Source of the DNA: Rhodopseudomonas palustris | GTDB lineage: Bacteria > Pseudomonadota > Alphaproteobacteria > Rhizobiales > Xanthobacteraceae | Direction of reading: 5' to 3' | Length of the DNA stretch: 64,000 nucleotides | NCBI GenBank assembly: GCA_016215605.1 | Contig: JACRJB010000010.1 | Location: 62,001 to 126,000, forward strand | Shown: positions 27,763 to 51,343 of the stretch, in pieces | Position numbering within the stretch: the first letter of the stretch is position 1 | How the letters are laid out: every line of letters starts with the position of its first letter | Program-made: the position numbers and the translations under genes | Notes under the pieces: generated by a model | What the model was told of the DNA's origin: nothing | What the model saw: only the letters and a program-made list of their open reading frames with translations | The model's database searches: none

Positions 27763-28389
27763 ATGAGCCATCTGCATGACGACGCCTTGCGCGCCGAGAT
27801 CGCCGCGCGTTGCCGCGCCTTCCCGCGTCACGACGACGGGCTGGAGCCGCACGGCCTCAAGCGCGCCGCGGTCGCGATCGCGGTGGTGGCCGGCGCCGAC
27901 GGCGCCGCTTCGTTCCTGCTGACCTTCCGGGCCGCGAGCCTGCGGGCCCACAGCGCCCAATGGGCACTGCCGGGCGGCCGCTGCGATGCCGGCGAGACCG
28001 CGCCGGAGACCGCGCTGCGCGAATTGCACGAGGAACTCGGGCTCGAACTCGAGGCCGGCGACGTGCTCGGGATGCTCGACGACTATCCGACCCGCTCCGG
28101 CTATCTGATCACGCCGGTGGTGGCCTGGGCGTCGGCCGCGGGGCCGCTCGCGCCCAATCCCGACGAGGTGGCCTCGGTGCATCACATCGCACTCGCCGCC
28201 ATCGCGCACGAAGACGCGTTCGATTTCACCCGGATTCCGGAGAGCGAGCGCCGGGTGGTGCGGTTCCGCCACGACGGCGACTACATCCACGCGCCGACCG
28301 CGGCGCTGATCTATCAGTTCCGCGAAGTGCTGGCCGGCCGCGTCACCCGCGTGGCGGATCTGGAGCAGCCGGTGTTCGCCTGGAAGTAG
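27763..28389 (+). CDS. Nudix hydrolase, probable CoA/ADP-ribose-type pyrophosphatase
   Basis: A 208-residue Nudix protein. The box GGRCDAGETAPETALRELHE plus ELGLEL fits GX5EX7REUXEEXGU. LPGG before the box and the length recall CoA pyrophosphatases (NudL type), but the full CoA-specific motif is not clear. It would cleave a nucleoside-diphosphate derivative in the cytosol with a divalent metal. It stands alone between the thioesterase and the DarT-like toxin, whose composition is quite different. Confidence 0.85.
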   Translation: MSHLHDDALRAEIAARCRAFPRHDDGLEPHGLKRAAVAIAVVAGADGAASFLLTFRAASLRAHSAQWALPGGRCDAGETAPETALRELHEELGLELEAGDVLGMLDDYPTRSGYLITPVVAWASAAGPLAPNPDEVASVHHIALAAIAHEDAFDFTRIPESERRVVRFRHDGDYIHAPTAALIYQFREVLAGRVTRVADLEQPVFAWK

Positions 28390-28460
28390 CGCTTCCGTGA
28401 CGCAACCAATGGATGCATCATCCACCTTACTTCAACGTGAGCGGTGGGAGATCTCCGAGA

Positions 28461-28979
28461 ATGCCTATTGTGGCTATTACTTCGATCGATAAAATTCCTT
28501 GCCTCTACCATTTTACCGATCGCAGAAATTTAGATTCCATCAAAGCGCAGGGTGGATTGCATCCACTGGCAGAACTCGAAAAGAAAGGCGTTGTTATCCC
28601 TGCTGCAGGTGGCAATCAATGGAGTCGCGATGCTGATGCTTTCAAAGGCATGGGAAAGTACGTTCACCTCTGCTTTTGCGAGGAACACCCAATGGAGTTT
28701 CGCGCTCGACAGGATGGGCGGATTACAGAGTCGATCTTTCTTAAGATTGACCCGTCGGTTCTGAAATTCGAGGGGGTAAAGTTCGCTCCAGATGTATCCA
28801 ATAAGGCCGGTGTTGAGTTGCTTGATCTGGCCGAAGCTGAAAAGGTCATCGATTTCGAAGTTCTTTACACTCGTACTGAGTGGTCCAATCAACTTATCAA
28901 GGAGCGTCGCAAAAAGGTGAAGAAATACGAAGTTCTGGTTCCATCTTTCATTCCCCTGAAGCTGATAAGGAACATTTAG
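28461..28979 (+). CDS. DarT-family DNA ADP-ribosyltransferase toxin
   Basis: A 172-residue protein of the DarT (DUF4433) family, which uses NAD+ to ADP-ribosylate bases in single-stranded DNA. Near the N-terminus LYHFTDRRNLDSI gives the conserved His/Arg NAD-binding segment (His-17); near the C-terminus KYEVLVPSFIPLKLI matches the strand with the catalytic Glu (Glu-157). The gene is much lower in GC than its neighbours and uses many AT-ending codons, so it was probably acquired. Start ATG at 28461; an upstream frame extension is not needed for the fold. The next gene, two bases after its stop, encodes a NADAR-type antitoxin. Confidence 0.82.
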   Translation: MPIVAITSIDKIPCLYHFTDRRNLDSIKAQGGLHPLAELEKKGVVIPAAGGNQWSRDADAFKGMGKYVHLCFCEEHPMEFRARQDGRITESIFLKIDPSVLKFEGVKFAPDVSNKAGVELLDLAEAEKVIDFEVLYTRTEWSNQLIKERRKKVKKYEVLVPSFIPLKLIRNI

Positions 28980-28980
28980 C

Positions 28981-29682
28981 TTGGCGAAGCGTCCAATATT
29001 TGTTCCGCATAAGGACGCACCGGGTCTGGTTCGGGAGATTGTCTTCGACATACCATGGGCCGGTGGGTTCGCAGCTACTCAAAAGAAGAAAAATATCGAG
29101 GCGCTTCACAAAGCGGCAGCTGCTCAGGGCTATTCACCGCTTCTGGAGGTTTCAACGAAATCTGATGAAACTGCCGGGCAACATCTAAGTGCCTTTCATC
29201 TTAAAGTTCACGGAAAATCGGGGGAGATACCCCTCGAATCAGCGTTTCAAGGGAGTAAGGTCTTTGAACGGGGCGGTCCTTTTACCGATCTCTACGAGGC
29301 AGAGCCGCGATTAGCGAAACGGGATGATCGTCTTAGAAAGTGCGGGCAACTTATTGGCTTTGAGTTCGAGGGCGATTCGTTTCCGCTCCAACCCACAACT
29401 GTATTCTACGATTGGCTTTATCTCCGTGCCATCTACCCACACAGATTCTGGCTCGAGAAAAGACTAACTAAGCGAGTAAAGTATGCAGGTTTCACCGACA
29501 TTGAGTTCAATCCAAGTAAATCGGTGAACTGTCAGGCTCGATCCTGCGCCCTATTCGTCGCTTTGGTGCAACAAGAGAAGCTGGAAAGTGTTGTCGCCTC
29601 GCCCAAAATTTTTGTCCAGGCGATGACCGAATTGTGTGATGGGCGTCTGCTGGGAGCAAATGAAAGTCAGCTAGCGATATAG
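28981..29682 (+). CDS. NADAR-family antitoxin associated with DarT
   Basis: A 233-residue protein. Residues ~80-145 contain LESAFQGSKVFERGG, RDDRLRKCGQLIGFEFEG and TVFYDWLYLRA, matching the NADAR-like domain of antitoxins associated with DarT1 toxins, which remove ADP-ribose from guanine. The gene begins with TTG one base after the toxin stop, with no nearby ATG, so translation is probably coupled. The low-GC composition is shared with the toxin. There is no DarG macrodomain gene, consistent with a NADAR-type rather than DarG-type module. Confidence 0.78.
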   Translation: MAKRPIFVPHKDAPGLVREIVFDIPWAGGFAATQKKKNIEALHKAAAAQGYSPLLEVSTKSDETAGQHLSAFHLKVHGKSGEIPLESAFQGSKVFERGGPFTDLYEAEPRLAKRDDRLRKCGQLIGFEFEGDSFPLQPTTVFYDWLYLRAIYPHRFWLEKRLTKRVKYAGFTDIEFNPSKSVNCQARSCALFVALVQQEKLESVVASPKIFVQAMTELCDGRLLGANESQLAI

Positions 29683-29751
29683 CCTCGCCGAGCACAGAAA
29701 TGTAGACAATTCGAAAGAATTGATTCACCATCTGTGGCTCAGAATGTGCTT

Positions 29752-30948
29752 ATGGCTTTCTCATGGATTGACGTAACGCGTTTAGCGCTATCTGCTCTGA
29801 CGCTGGTCGCGTCTGCACCACTGTCGCATGCTGAAATGGGCGTGCTGCCGTTCTCCGTGGCGAGGGCGCGCGCGCAGGCCGCCTCACCCGAAGCGGTCGC
29901 CGAATATCGCTACCGGCTGCAGCAATATCAGGCGGCGCGCGCCGAATTCGACCGCGACGCCGAGGCCTATTGGAACGCGATCGCCGAGAAGCGCCGCATC
30001 CGCAACGCCAAGCGCCGCGCCGGCGATCAGATCTCCGGCGACGACTACGTGCTGGTGCAGCCGCCGGTCTATACCGGGCCGAAGCGGCCGGTCGATCCCG
30101 AGCCGAAACCGCAGCCGCCGGGCGAGCGCCGGACGCTTCCGGTGGTGGCGGACTTCGTCAAGGCGGCGGCCGATTACTATCAGTTCACGCCGCAGCGGCC
30201 GGCCTCGGAGCTGGATTTCAAGCGCGCCTATGCGCGCGTCGCCCGCGCCATGGGGCTGACCCGCGAGCAGGCGGTGCGGGTCTACGCGTTCGAGACCGGC
30301 GGCAACGGCGACTACGACATGCAGTCCGGCCTCAGCAAGTCGCGCCCCGGTTCGCGGGCGATCTCGACCGCAATCGGCTACAATCAGTTGCTCACCACCA
30401 ACACCTTGGTGCTGCTGGCCGAGCAGGGCCATCACATCCTCAAGGTGCTGAACGATCGCGCGGCGAGCCTGTCGGGGCCGCAGCGCGCGGCGCTGGAGCG
30501 CAAGATCGCGGTCGTCAAGCGGATGGTGGGGGTGGCGCGGTCGATCCCGGGCAATTGGAGCGAGCACGAGAAGCTCGGCCGCACGCCGCAGGGCTGGGGC
30601 GTGCACGCGCTGGTGCTCGACATCGACGTCGGCCCGCTGCTGCAGACCCACAAGCTGCTGACTTCGGTGATCTTCGCCCGGCAGAAGGGTTACACCGAGC
30701 CGCTGACTGCCGCCGAGCTGGAGATGATGAATCTCACCGGCGACGGCACCGGGCTCGACATGGTGACGATGCCGCAGGCGCTGCGCGAAGTGGTGCCGAC
30801 CTCGAACTTCTTCCAGCGCTCCGGCTACGAGCGCAATCCGGTGGCGATCCGTCACAACACCGTCGCGAAGCTGCTGGCGATCACCGATTCCCGAATGGAC
30901 GCCAACAGCGCCAATCCCGGCGCGCGCGAACTCTACGCGGCGTTCTGA
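29752..30948 (+). CDS. Secreted hypothetical protein
   Basis: About 398 residues with an N-terminal signal peptide (RLALSALTLVASAPLSHA). The mature protein has a helical Arg/Ala/Glu-rich region (~45-85), a Pro-rich linker (~95-125), and a domain with VYAFETGGNGDYDMQSGLS and STAIGYNQLL, whose Glu and GYxQLL pattern resembles lysozyme/transglycosylase-like folds; this is suggestive only. ATG 29752 is preferred over GTG 29734 because it begins the signal peptide. The first ~80 bases share the low GC of the upstream toxin-antitoxin pair, whereas the rest is normal. Confidence 0.65.
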   Translation: MAFSWIDVTRLALSALTLVASAPLSHAEMGVLPFSVARARAQAASPEAVAEYRYRLQQYQAARAEFDRDAEAYWNAIAEKRRIRNAKRRAGDQISGDDYVLVQPPVYTGPKRPVDPEPKPQPPGERRTLPVVADFVKAAADYYQFTPQRPASELDFKRAYARVARAMGLTREQAVRVYAFETGGNGDYDMQSGLSKSRPGSRAISTAIGYNQLLTTNTLVLLAEQGHHILKVLNDRAASLSGPQRAALERKIAVVKRMVGVARSIPGNWSEHEKLGRTPQGWGVHALVLDIDVGPLLQTHKLLTSVIFARQKGYTEPLTAAELEMMNLTGDGTGLDMVTMPQALREVVPTSNFFQRSGYERNPVAIRHNTVAKLLAITDSRMDANSANPGARELYAAF

Positions 30949-48914: not shown

Positions 48915-49296
48915 CCGGCTCCGGGATTGGGGCGAAATTCGTGCCCAATTCCGGCTTGAACATGGTTCGGAAATTTTGTCGCCGTTATCCCCCGGCGAGG
49001 CCTCGAGCGGGATGCATGCCGGGAACAGGTTAGGCGTCAGCGCGTACCGATGCGTTGGTGTCGCAGCCAGAAACCGGCAAAATGAGCTGCGTCCGCCATT
49101 CTCTGTTACGGCCGGTTGTCACCCGGCATGCGGGAGGTGAACGCAGCAGGGGCGCTGGCGTTCCTGCGTTTGCTGCGCAGGCGGAGATCTTGCGGGCCGG
49201 CCGCCGCGGGCGGCGACGGGGTGACATCGTCACAGACGGCGAGGGTGCGTCGGTAGAAACCGTGCCTGCGCTCAGATGGATTCCGAAGGACCCGCG
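48915..49296. other. 382 bp gap without a supported gene
   Basis: The segment between the small helical protein and the methyltransferase gene contains no supported reading frame, tRNA or long palindrome. It presumably holds promoters for the two divergent genes. Confidence 0.5.
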
Positions 49297-49917: not shown

Positions 49918-50034
49918 GGTGGCCGCCGGGTGGCGTGAGAAAGACGCGCCGGACTGCCGAGTAAGCGCCCATGTTCTAATTCAACCGGAACGCGAAATGC
50001 TCTAACCTCTGCGAAGCCGAGGCAGGGGGCGCCT

Positions 50035-50448
50035 TTGGAGATCGCATTTCCGATCGAGTTCATTGTGGCAGATACGCCGGTTTCGCTTCAGGCCAAACGG
50101 CGCCAGTCGCTTGATCAATGGAAGAGCCAGGTGATCAGTGCGAGCCGGCCTGTGCTGCCACAGGGGCATTTTGCGACTGATCGCCCAATCTCAGCGACGC
50201 TGTTCTACTTTCCTCCGGCCGAGATGCCCGGAGACATCGACAATATCGTGAAGCCGATCTTGGATGCGCTCGGCGGCCATATCTACTTAGACGATCGGCA
50301 GGTGCAGCGCGTCGTCGTCCAGAAATTCGAGCCGGAGGGCATCTTCCCCTTCGCGGCTCCAACTCCTACGTTAGAGGCTGCCTTACGAGGAACGAAGCCG
50401 GTCCTGTATGTCCGGTTGTCCGACGATCCGTTCGAAGAGTTGAGCTGA
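50035..50448 (+). CDS. RusA-family crossover-junction endonuclease-like protein
   Basis: A 137-residue protein beginning with TTG, preceded by AGGGGG. Residues 66-91 read GDIDNIVKPILDALGGHIYL-DD, aligning with the RusA active-site region: Asp-67, Asp-69, Lys-73 and Asp-86/87 correspond to the catalytic Asp and Lys residues of RusA. RusA proteins cleave Holliday junctions and are typically phage-borne. Codon use includes TTA and other AT-ending codons, unlike the flanking genes. Its stop overlaps the next ATG (TGATG). Alternatives: a solitary domesticated phage nuclease. Confidence 0.82.
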   Translation: MEIAFPIEFIVADTPVSLQAKRRQSLDQWKSQVISASRPVLPQGHFATDRPISATLFYFPPAEMPGDIDNIVKPILDALGGHIYLDDRQVQRVVVQKFEPEGIFPFAAPTPTLEAALRGTKPVLYVRLSDDPFEELS

Positions 50449-51098
50449 TGACGAGCACAGACGTCGCAGAGCGGGACGTGATCGAGCTGGTACTCCCCCG
50501 CTATCGGGACGAGGGGTACGAGGTCTACGTCCATCCCTCGCCCTCTCTGTTGCCGCCATTCATGAAATCGTATCAGCCTGATGCGATCGCCCTGAGAGAC
50601 GGCAGGAAGATCGCGATCGAGGTCGTCCGAGGTGATGAAGCGAGCCGAAAGGCCGAGAGCCTTCATTCGCTGTTCGCAGAACAGGATGATTGGGAACTGC
50701 AGATAATCTACGCGCCACCGCTGTCGTCTCGATCCAATCTGTTGATCGCGTCGCGCCCAATTATCCTCGAATCAATACGCAGGGTCGACGCTCTCAGGGA
50801 GGCAGGTGACCGGTTGCCATCATTGATGATGGCTTGGGCAACGTTCGAGGCGATCGGCAGGGCATTGCTTCCAACCCAGCTCGGCCAGCCCCAGTCCCCG
50901 GCGCGCTTGGTCGAAGTGCTGGCGTCCGAAGGGATCATCACGCCGGACGAGGCTCAGGTTCTCCGGCGCGCGAGTGCGATCCGCAACGCCGTCGCGCACG
51001 GCGCGATCGATGCCGTGGTGGACGACGAACTGCTCCAGCAGGTGATCGCGATTCTCTCGACATTGGCCGAGATGGCTCCAGCCGAGGCCTTATCCTAG
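50448..51098 (+). CDS. Predicted PD-(D/E)XK-like nuclease with C-terminal HEPN motif
   Basis: A 216-residue protein, translationally coupled to the RusA-like gene. The N-terminal half has MKSYQPDAIALRDG and RKIAIEVVRGDE (Asp-45, Glu-58), the PD-x12-E pattern of restriction-type nucleases such as the archaeal Holliday-junction-resolvase-like group; the following Lys is replaced by Val. The C-terminal half (~125-205) is helical and contains ASAIRNAVAHG, an RX4H motif (Arg-179, His-184) of HEPN ribonuclease or antitoxin domains. Base composition is atypical for the locus. I do not know a characterised system with this exact pair. Confidence 0.7.
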   Translation: MTSTDVAERDVIELVLPRYRDEGYEVYVHPSPSLLPPFMKSYQPDAIALRDGRKIAIEVVRGDEASRKAESLHSLFAEQDDWELQIIYAPPLSSRSNLLIASRPIILESIRRVDALREAGDRLPSLMMAWATFEAIGRALLPTQLGQPQSPARLVEVLASEGIITPDEAQVLRRASAIRNAVAHGAIDAVVDDELLQQVIAILSTLAEMAPAEALS

Positions 51099-51133
51099 CG
51101 CTTTAGTCTCACGCGCCCTTTCCGGTCGCCCCC

Positions 51134-51162
51134 TTGACTCCACCCCCTGCCGATGGTGCATT
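51134..51162 (+). promoter_or_regulatory. Candidate trp promoter
   Basis: TTGACT (51134-51139), a 17-bp spacer and TGCATT (51157-51162) form a sigma-70-type promoter. The predicted start at about 51169-51170 coincides with the ATG of trpL, which implies a leaderless leader-peptide mRNA as reported for Sinorhizobium meliloti. Confidence 0.6.
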
Positions 51163-51169
51163 GCCGCAC

Positions 51170-51232
51170 ATGCGCACGTCGATCCGCCAGACCCGGCCGT
51201 CCCAGACCCGTCTTTGGTGGCGCACCTCCTGA
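51170..51232 (+). CDS. trpL: trp operon leader peptide
   Basis: A 20-codon frame, MRTSIRQTRPSQTRLWWRTS, with tandem Trp codons at 51215-51220, typical of attenuator leader peptides. No ribosome binding site is visible, matching leaderless translation from the predicted transcription start. Trp-tRNA shortage would stall the ribosome on the Trp pair and favour the antiterminator over the hairpin at 51271-51293. Confidence 0.88.
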   Translation: MRTSIRQTRPSQTRLWWRTS

Positions 51233-51270
51233 GAGGTGGCCGTGCGATTTCCCGTTTTTGAATCGTCCCG

Positions 51271-51293
51271 AGGCCGCCCCACAGCGGCGGCCT
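51271..51293 (+). terminator. trp attenuator hairpin
   Basis: AGGCCGCC-CCACAGC-GGCGGCCT, a perfect 8-bp GC-rich stem followed by GCGTTTG, 38 bp past the trpL stop and 50 bp before trpE(G). The U-tract is short, as seen for other alphaproteobacterial attenuators. Confidence 0.8.
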
Positions 51294-51343
51294 GCGTTTG
51301 TCCTGTGTGGCGTTCCTCCGGCAAGTTGAGTTAAGAGGATGCC

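Follow-up and report, generated by a model that had tools for sequence, protein, structure and literature searches.

What is a gene for a RusA-type junction nuclease doing in a bacterial genome among neighbours that are not phage genes, overlapping a gene for a protein with a predicted HEPN ribonuclease domain? The question is raised by a locus of Rhodopseudomonas palustris (genome of 5.79 Mb in 78 contigs) that lies in the analysed stretch of 64,000 nucleotides, referred to below as the window. The following features define the locus:

50035 to 50448, plus strand: gene 1, predicted RusA-family nuclease of 137 amino acids with a TTG start (PF05866, E 1.9e-9; the profile aligns to E. coli RusA, 1q8r)
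50446 to 50450, plus strand: TGATG, the stop/start overlap of gene 1 and gene 2
50448 to 51098, plus strand: gene 2, 216 amino acids, predicted AHJR-like REase-fold domain and HepT-type HEPN domain (PF18743, 9.5e-21; PF01934, 1.1e-4; AF2 model)

One base belongs both to the stop codon of gene 1 and to the ATG that starts gene 2, and because of this overlap the two genes are probably translationally coupled. With a GC content of 0.600 the pair lies below the window as a whole (0.656), the upstream methyltransferase gene (0.693) and the downstream trpE (0.678), and its third-position GC is 0.70 and 0.74 where the flanking genes have 0.88 and 0.91. Of 315 segments of 1064 bases, about 5% have a GC content as low as that of the pair. 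According to Pfam, an OmpW-type protein, a PhnA-domain protein (YjdM) and the methyltransferase are encoded upstream, and anthranilate synthase trpE(G) followed by a phosphoribosyltransferase family member downstream; the sixth flanking protein, a small one, has no Pfam match, and none of the five families assigned is a phage family. An earlier note, made from the sequence letters, had claimed the one-base overlap at these positions, a composition different from both flanks and an absence of phage genes around the pair, and on all three points, as well as in its residue numbers (D67 in gene 1; E58, R179 and H184 in gene 2), it was right.

Some other features of the window may be mentioned here. 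An Rfam match to the Rhizobiales sRNA Atu_At1 (49018 to 49131, minus strand, 88 bits) lies shortly upstream of the methyltransferase gene and of the variable slot described below. The intergenic stretch 51122 to 51343, before trpE, aligns at about 77-92% to other genomes of the genus, those lacking the pair included; it has no Rfam match at the gathering threshold and is possibly a trp leader. Elsewhere in the window, a low-GC patch (0.53-0.56 over 28001 to 30000) carries two adjacent genes at 28413 to 29682, plus strand. The second of them (28981 to 29682) matches the NADAR protein of Geobacter lovleyi (8bat, 3.3e-50), and the first (28413 to 28979), without a meaningful match among PDB sequences, resembles by its motif a DarT-type ADP-ribosyltransferase; possibly they form a toxin-antitoxin pair of DarT-NADAR type.

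The active site of gene 1 was located as follows:

50233 to 50295, plus strand: predicted RusA active-site block with D67, D69, N70, K73, D77 and D87, aligned with D70, D72, N73, K76, D80 and D91 of 1q8r

Gene 1 scores 38.6 bits against PF05866, whose cut-off is 22.8, and its relatives match this family at E<=0.01 in all 17 rows of our RusA alignment (A2), in which no other Pfam family was found. The E-value of the RusA profile against 1q8r is weak (0.28), and the alignment spans the active site, of which D70, D72, K76 and D91 are the catalytic Asp/Lys set of the E. coli enzyme; D67, D69, K73 and D87 are their counterparts in gene 1. All residues of the block are invariant in the 17 aligned copies, and each of the 24 unbroken RusA copies (24 of 24) has the motif DxDNxxK. 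The RusA reading of the earlier note is supported. A structure model built from three sequences has a mean pLDDT of 41.1. In the related locus L002 a TTG could likewise serve as start at the corresponding position, and for L017 it is the annotated one. Judged by sequence, gene 1 codes for a nuclease of the RusA family whose active site is intact.

Gene 2 is predicted to consist of two domains:

50448 to 50726, plus strand: AHJR-like PD-(D/E)XK-fold domain, residues 1-93, with P44, D45 and E58 present and the motif Lys absent (EVV)
50745 to 51077, plus strand: HEPN domain, residues 100-210, with the motif R179-N-A-V-A-H184-G

The match to the HepT-like family is slightly below its cut-off in the window protein; of 19 gene-2 relatives, 17 match this family with E<=0.01. 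The AF2 model has a mean pLDDT of 81.9 and a pTM of 0.58. With VIA-align, the top rows for residues 100-210 are HepT and other HEPN proteins, and the matches of residues 1-93 are Hjc and other REase folds; a gene-2 profile search also reaches the archaeal Holliday junction resolvase ST1444 at 3.5e-5. Foldseek found no match of the model in the PDB at E<=0.001, with an R2 retrotransposon protein in the first row, and since this result is weak the fold assignment rests on the sequence profiles and the VIA-align rows. Both halves of the protein are thereby assigned to known families, REase-fold and HEPN. The C-terminal RX4H motif proposed earlier belongs to a HEPN domain of HepT type and is kept in 26 of 26 gene-2 copies. 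As to the nuclease-like PD-x12-E pattern proposed for the N-terminal part, the fold stands, and the catalytic reading is weakened by the missing Lys. Among the 26 copies E-x-K is kept in 8, or in 9 when L013 is included, whose motif is ambiguous and has an EIK displaced downstream by a few residues; E-x-R occurs in 4, E without K or R in 10 (the window protein among them), and the Glu itself is missing in 3 (L002, G755, L011). With E-x-K broken in 17 or 18 of 26 copies, the label of nuclease is doubtful for this domain. In the two related genomes G755 and G763 the residue at E58 is Lys; simple counting gives a dN/dS between them of 0.09 (RusA) and 0.07 (gene 2), which argues that the domain is kept though it is probably unable to cut. 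The AHJR-like domain, then, probably recognises DNA rather than cuts it, and from these patterns we infer that the working activities of the pair are DNA cleavage by RusA and RNA cleavage by HEPN, with the AHJR-like domain used mostly for DNA recognition.

The earlier note had proposed to look for the pair in other genomes, and it is found there: RusA lies directly upstream of the AHJR-HEPN gene at 26 of 27 loci (26 pairs, L003 included, and one copy without RusA). With the gene-2 start taken that is nearest the RusA stop, 25 of the 26 pairs show an overlap of 1 or 4 bases, and in the remaining one (L144) the genes are separated by a one-base gap. Among 397 genomes of the order, the single window gene-2 protein matches 13, of which 11 have full-length copies, all with RusA directly upstream; the partial matches L014 and L015, without RusA, were left out of the counts. 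The RusA profile applied to the same 397 genomes recovers these 11 (96-213 bits) and two weaker RusA proteins (43 and 35 bits), so the RusA subfamily at 96 bits or more coincides exactly with the genomes that have gene 2, in a comparison where the profile (A2) itself includes 9 of the 11 pair genomes and where, with up to 10 candidates scored per genome, other RusA proteins may be missed. Within the genus, 4 of 16 genomes have a full-length gene 2, all as pairs (G759, matched in the HEPN part only, was left out). Six of 357 genomes of the class exceed the PF18743 cut-off: the new pairs G847, G848 and G774, the known G000 and G117, and G984; G880 and G1055, below that cut-off and without a match to the gene-2 profile, were left out. 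Five of 398 genomes of the phylum exceed the same cut-off, all of them pairs; matches beyond the five full-length ones cover the HEPN part only and were left out, and G445, from another class of the same phylum, was kept below the cut-off, both of its genes matching (70.2 and 60.8 bits). Among the control genomes, that of Caulobacter vibrioides also scores for PF18743. On plasmids gene 2 was found in 6 of 72,556 records, with RusA upstream in all.

The copy in G984 (L166) is a diverged AHJR-HEPN protein with the motif RDALAHG; it is a lone copy, with no RusA found in 3.2 kb of sequence at this locus.

Some of the 26 pairs are closely related (G755/G763, L020/L021, L004/L016), so these counts are not counts of independent events. 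Distances between RusA proteins and between gene-2 proteins correlate with r=0.894 over 17 pairs, a value reached in none of 2000 permutations and one to which shared descent contributes. The pair is not a chance neighbourhood, since both genes and their order recur in relatives.

The locus itself is variable. In the genus, it occupies a place with variable content:

49918 to 51343, no strand assigned: variable slot upstream of trpE(G), beside the methyltransferase gene, holding the pair and/or HicAB in the genus

Across the 16 genomes of the genus this slot holds the pair only in 2 (the window and G752), the pair with HicB or HicAB in 2 (G755, G763), HicB and/or HicA only in 9, and neither the pair nor Hic was found in it in 3; the methyltransferase gene adjoins the slot in 8 of the 16, and elsewhere the slot is defined by trpE alone. 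HicA and/or HicB are thus present in 11 of 16 slots (L113, L114, L128, L129, L131, L132, L134, L135, L136, L140 and L141, all upstream of trpE) and absent from the window; the copies in G756 were assigned by Pfam at 1.7e-19 (HicA) and 7.1e-14 (HicB). A clean swap of HicAB for the pair is ruled out by the two genomes that have both and the three that have neither, and we speak of a shared variable slot instead.

Within the slot, the pair of the window compares with that of G755 and G763 in an uneven manner. Throughout RusA and as far as about codon 50 of gene 2, third-position identity lies at 0.60-0.97; beyond this point it falls to 0.38-0.53 (30-codon windows), while the flanks stay similar, at 0.70-0.71 in the methyltransferase gene and 0.79 in trpE. 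The pair of G752 is diverged throughout (0.27-0.55), although its trpE is at 0.78. This fall of identity inside gene 2 between similar flanks indicates allele replacement, with the breakpoint placed as follows:

50595 to 50621, plus strand: approximate allele breakpoint in gene 2, about codons 50-58, relative to G755 and G763, placed by the drop in third-position identity

One more kind of variation concerns RusA itself, whose frame is broken in 2 of the 11 pairs of the order sample (G218, G333) beside an open gene 2. The break lies at an identical place, a CCCC run, in these two genomes of different families:

L011, 1180 to 1215: RusA frame-break site
L012, 1198 to 1233: RusA frame-break site

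A third locus (L008) has a run of five C at the same place and is in frame. The breaks may reflect recurrent loss, sequencing error or frameshifting.

From these data it would be natural to think of a plain toxin-antitoxin system, where gene 2 would be a HEPN RNase toxin neutralised by the binding of RusA, DNA cutting would be incidental or autoregulatory, and no DNA signal would be involved. The gene order and the stop/start overlap in 25 of 26 pairs, the co-distribution of RusA and gene 2 in the genomes of the order, the slot in common with HicAB and a HEPN domain of HepT type all agree with it. However, an antitoxin that acts by binding only would not need the catalytic residues that RusA keeps, and 3 of 27 loci have an open gene 2 with a RusA that is broken in frame or was not found; the two broken frames among 26 pairs and the copy of G984 do not easily allow a strict antitoxin role. 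We consider this explanation unlikely, though it is by no means far-fetched.

What surrounds the pair at its other loci was compared with models of known defence systems. No model of PADLOC 2.0.0 matches either window protein up to E=10, and among 19 gene-2 relatives there are two weak matches to HEPN-containing models (0.019 and 0.038), of one member each. The neighbour tally comprises 88 genes, 81 hand-picked from 160 called ORFs and 7 annotated genes of L017 and L021. They match 99 Pfam families, of which the best 25 of 99 are mainly metabolic, and, at E<=1e-8 and pooled across loci, 44 PADLOC families. Of 20 neighbours scanned singly, 7 have PADLOC matches, all at plasmid loci (L017, L019, L020, L021), and none of 10 neighbours from six chromosomal loci was matched; several of these matches cover part of the protein, for example that of REase_II, which in ATP-binding proteins extends over the first ~140 residues. 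On the Rhizobium plasmid L021 the pair stands beside AbiEi/AbiEii, and matches to an Mrr-type REase model occur near it on the Rhizobium plasmids L019, L020 and L021. On the L019 plasmid a strong match to GajA, split in two, lies ~4 kb from the pair, and on the L020 plasmid one lies ~6 kb from it, as placed by a search of 15 genomes or records, with 11 of 14 control genomes weakly matching the GajA model; in G107 a strong GajA match is on a different contig from its pair. Matches to UzuA, ZorB, PD-Lambda-2_C and AriA, whose locus is unplaced, were left out of the counts. Within 8 kb of the copy on an Azospirillum plasmid, no gene is annotated as a defence gene. A defence-island setting is therefore clear only on some plasmids, given the chromosomal neighbours without PADLOC match and the mainly metabolic neighbour families; the defence-island neighbourhoods that the earlier note proposed to look for are seen at plasmid copies near AbiE, Mrr-type and GajA-like genes and are not reflected in PADLOC matches near the six chromosomal loci.

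The copy on pTi_CFBP2177 has different company, ligD, a gene of the ImuA family and genes for a Y-family (translesion) and an error-prone polymerase. This neighbourhood, together with two junction-resolvase-type domains in one operon and the low dN/dS of both genes in the two genomes compared, would fit a housekeeping-like accessory of repair or recombination, in which RusA resolves junctions, the AHJR-like domain aids binding and HEPN has a structural role or works on R-loop RNA. Such a role accords badly with an occurrence as patchy as 11 of 397 order genomes and 4 of 16 genus genomes, with allele replacement at the pair and with the R-x4-H kept in all 26 HEPN domains. Neither GTTCN7GTTC nor GAACN7GAAC, the alphaproteobacterial LexA-type box, occurs in exact form in 17 upstream regions, which rules against SOS control of the pair and leaves no damage signal indicated. 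The repair explanation seems improbable to us. Still less probable is a restriction-like DNase, in which RusA, with the AHJR-like domain where its ExK is intact, would cut branched foreign DNA and HEPN would serve for dimerisation or as backup, since the intact RusA active site, the E-x-K kept in 8 or 9 of 26 domains and the Mrr-type neighbours on Rhizobium plasmids, which speak for it, are set against an ExK broken in 17 or 18 of 26 copies that all keep R-x4-H.

RusA is a crossover-junction nuclease of phages and prophages, whose fold family and complete active site gene 1 shares, and an origin of the pair from phages had to be considered. It was rejected: a search of 50,697 phage records brought no match to gene 2, nor did IMG/VR scans by single sequence or by profile, which use short peptide patterns and can miss relatives, and the 61 IMG/VR loci found with the RusA profile align mostly over the core motif. 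The locus with the highest listed identity among them (L109, 58%) is an ordinary phage-type RusA without gene 2. Unlike the phage proteins, gene 1 belongs to a host subfamily.

Several described systems resemble parts of the pair. One of them is the HEPN/MNT toxin-antitoxin (HepT-MntA, type VII), likewise a small two-gene unit with a HepT-type HEPN fold and R-x4-H. Here, in contrast, the partner of gene 2 is RusA, at 26 of 27 loci, instead of an MNT nucleotidyltransferase, and HEPN is fused to a DNA-nuclease-like domain. The tyrosine of the RX4HXY motif that is AMPylated by MntA, two residues after the HEPN His, is absent in 25 of 26 gene-2 copies and found in L013 only; for this reason, and with RusA and not MNT as the paired gene, the known control of HepT does not apply. 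The archaeal Holliday junction resolvases Hjc and ST1444 share with gene 2 the REase core, and differ from it by the ExK Lys that the window protein has lost.

The fusion itself has been recorded. Table 1 of Anantharaman et al. 2013 (PMC3710099) describes occasional fusions of the DUF86 HEPN-M family to an archaeal Holliday junction resolvase-like REase that had not been detected before, and gene 2 has the same two domains in one protein; RusA has no occurrence in the main text of that paper. No paper with the whole words RusA and HEPN together was found in a search of 5.39 million papers covering neither preprints nor supplements, and the gene table of pTi_CFBP2177 gives the two genes separate entries, one for a RusA-family nuclease and one for a protein with a HepT-like ribonuclease domain. 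The earlier opinion that no system of this architecture is described has thus to be divided: the AHJR-HEPN fusion is known since 2013, and what appears to be new is the junction nuclease as partner gene in a two-gene module based on HEPN.

We propose, with a confidence that falls somewhat short of even, that the pair is a two-gene conflict module of toxin or abortive-infection type, with branched DNA as its signal and a HEPN RNase as its output; the complex, the gating by DNA, the toxicity and the defence we infer. RusA and the AHJR-like domain would jointly recognise four-way or branched DNA, whose source would be replicating or recombining DNA of a phage or plasmid, and RusA would cut it. 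Engagement of the junction, or a loss of the complex between RusA and the gene-2 protein, would release the HEPN RNase, which would then cut cellular RNA, and growth would stop. RusA would in this way take the place that MntA has beside HepT, as a sensor and restraint and not as an AMP-transferase.

This conflict-module reading is suggested by the near-constant pairing and the correlated distances of the two proteins, by the RusA DxDNxxK and HEPN R-x4-H motifs being kept while ExK is mostly lost, and by the patchy distribution in the genus, the allele replacement, the low GC, the slot shared with HicAB and the plasmid copies near AbiE, Mrr-type and GajA genes. Counted against it are the absence of a PADLOC model, the mainly metabolic neighbours, the chromosomal neighbours without PADLOC match, the Azospirillum copy, the two frame-broken RusA genes and the lone copy of G984, the absence of a LexA-type box upstream, the absence of gene 2 in phages and that of the HepT tyrosine needed for control of MntA type.

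In the best-known HEPN toxins, control is exerted by an MNT partner that AMPylates the toxin, or by nucleotides that act as a switch. It is conceivable, though on balance doubtful, that in the present immunity or toxin module an active RusA and a mostly catalytically dead resolvase-like domain form a sensor of branched DNA that switches a HepT-like HEPN RNase. If this is true, an RNase toxin is controlled by DNA structure, and not by a nucleotide signal or an AMPylating antitoxin. A HEPN RNase with an active junction nuclease as its partner would link the structure of phage or plasmid DNA to the destruction of RNA, and the pair, being small and conserved, can be tested with few point mutants. 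For the RusA subfamily, currently annotated simply as crossover junction endodeoxyribonuclease, a role outside phages would follow.
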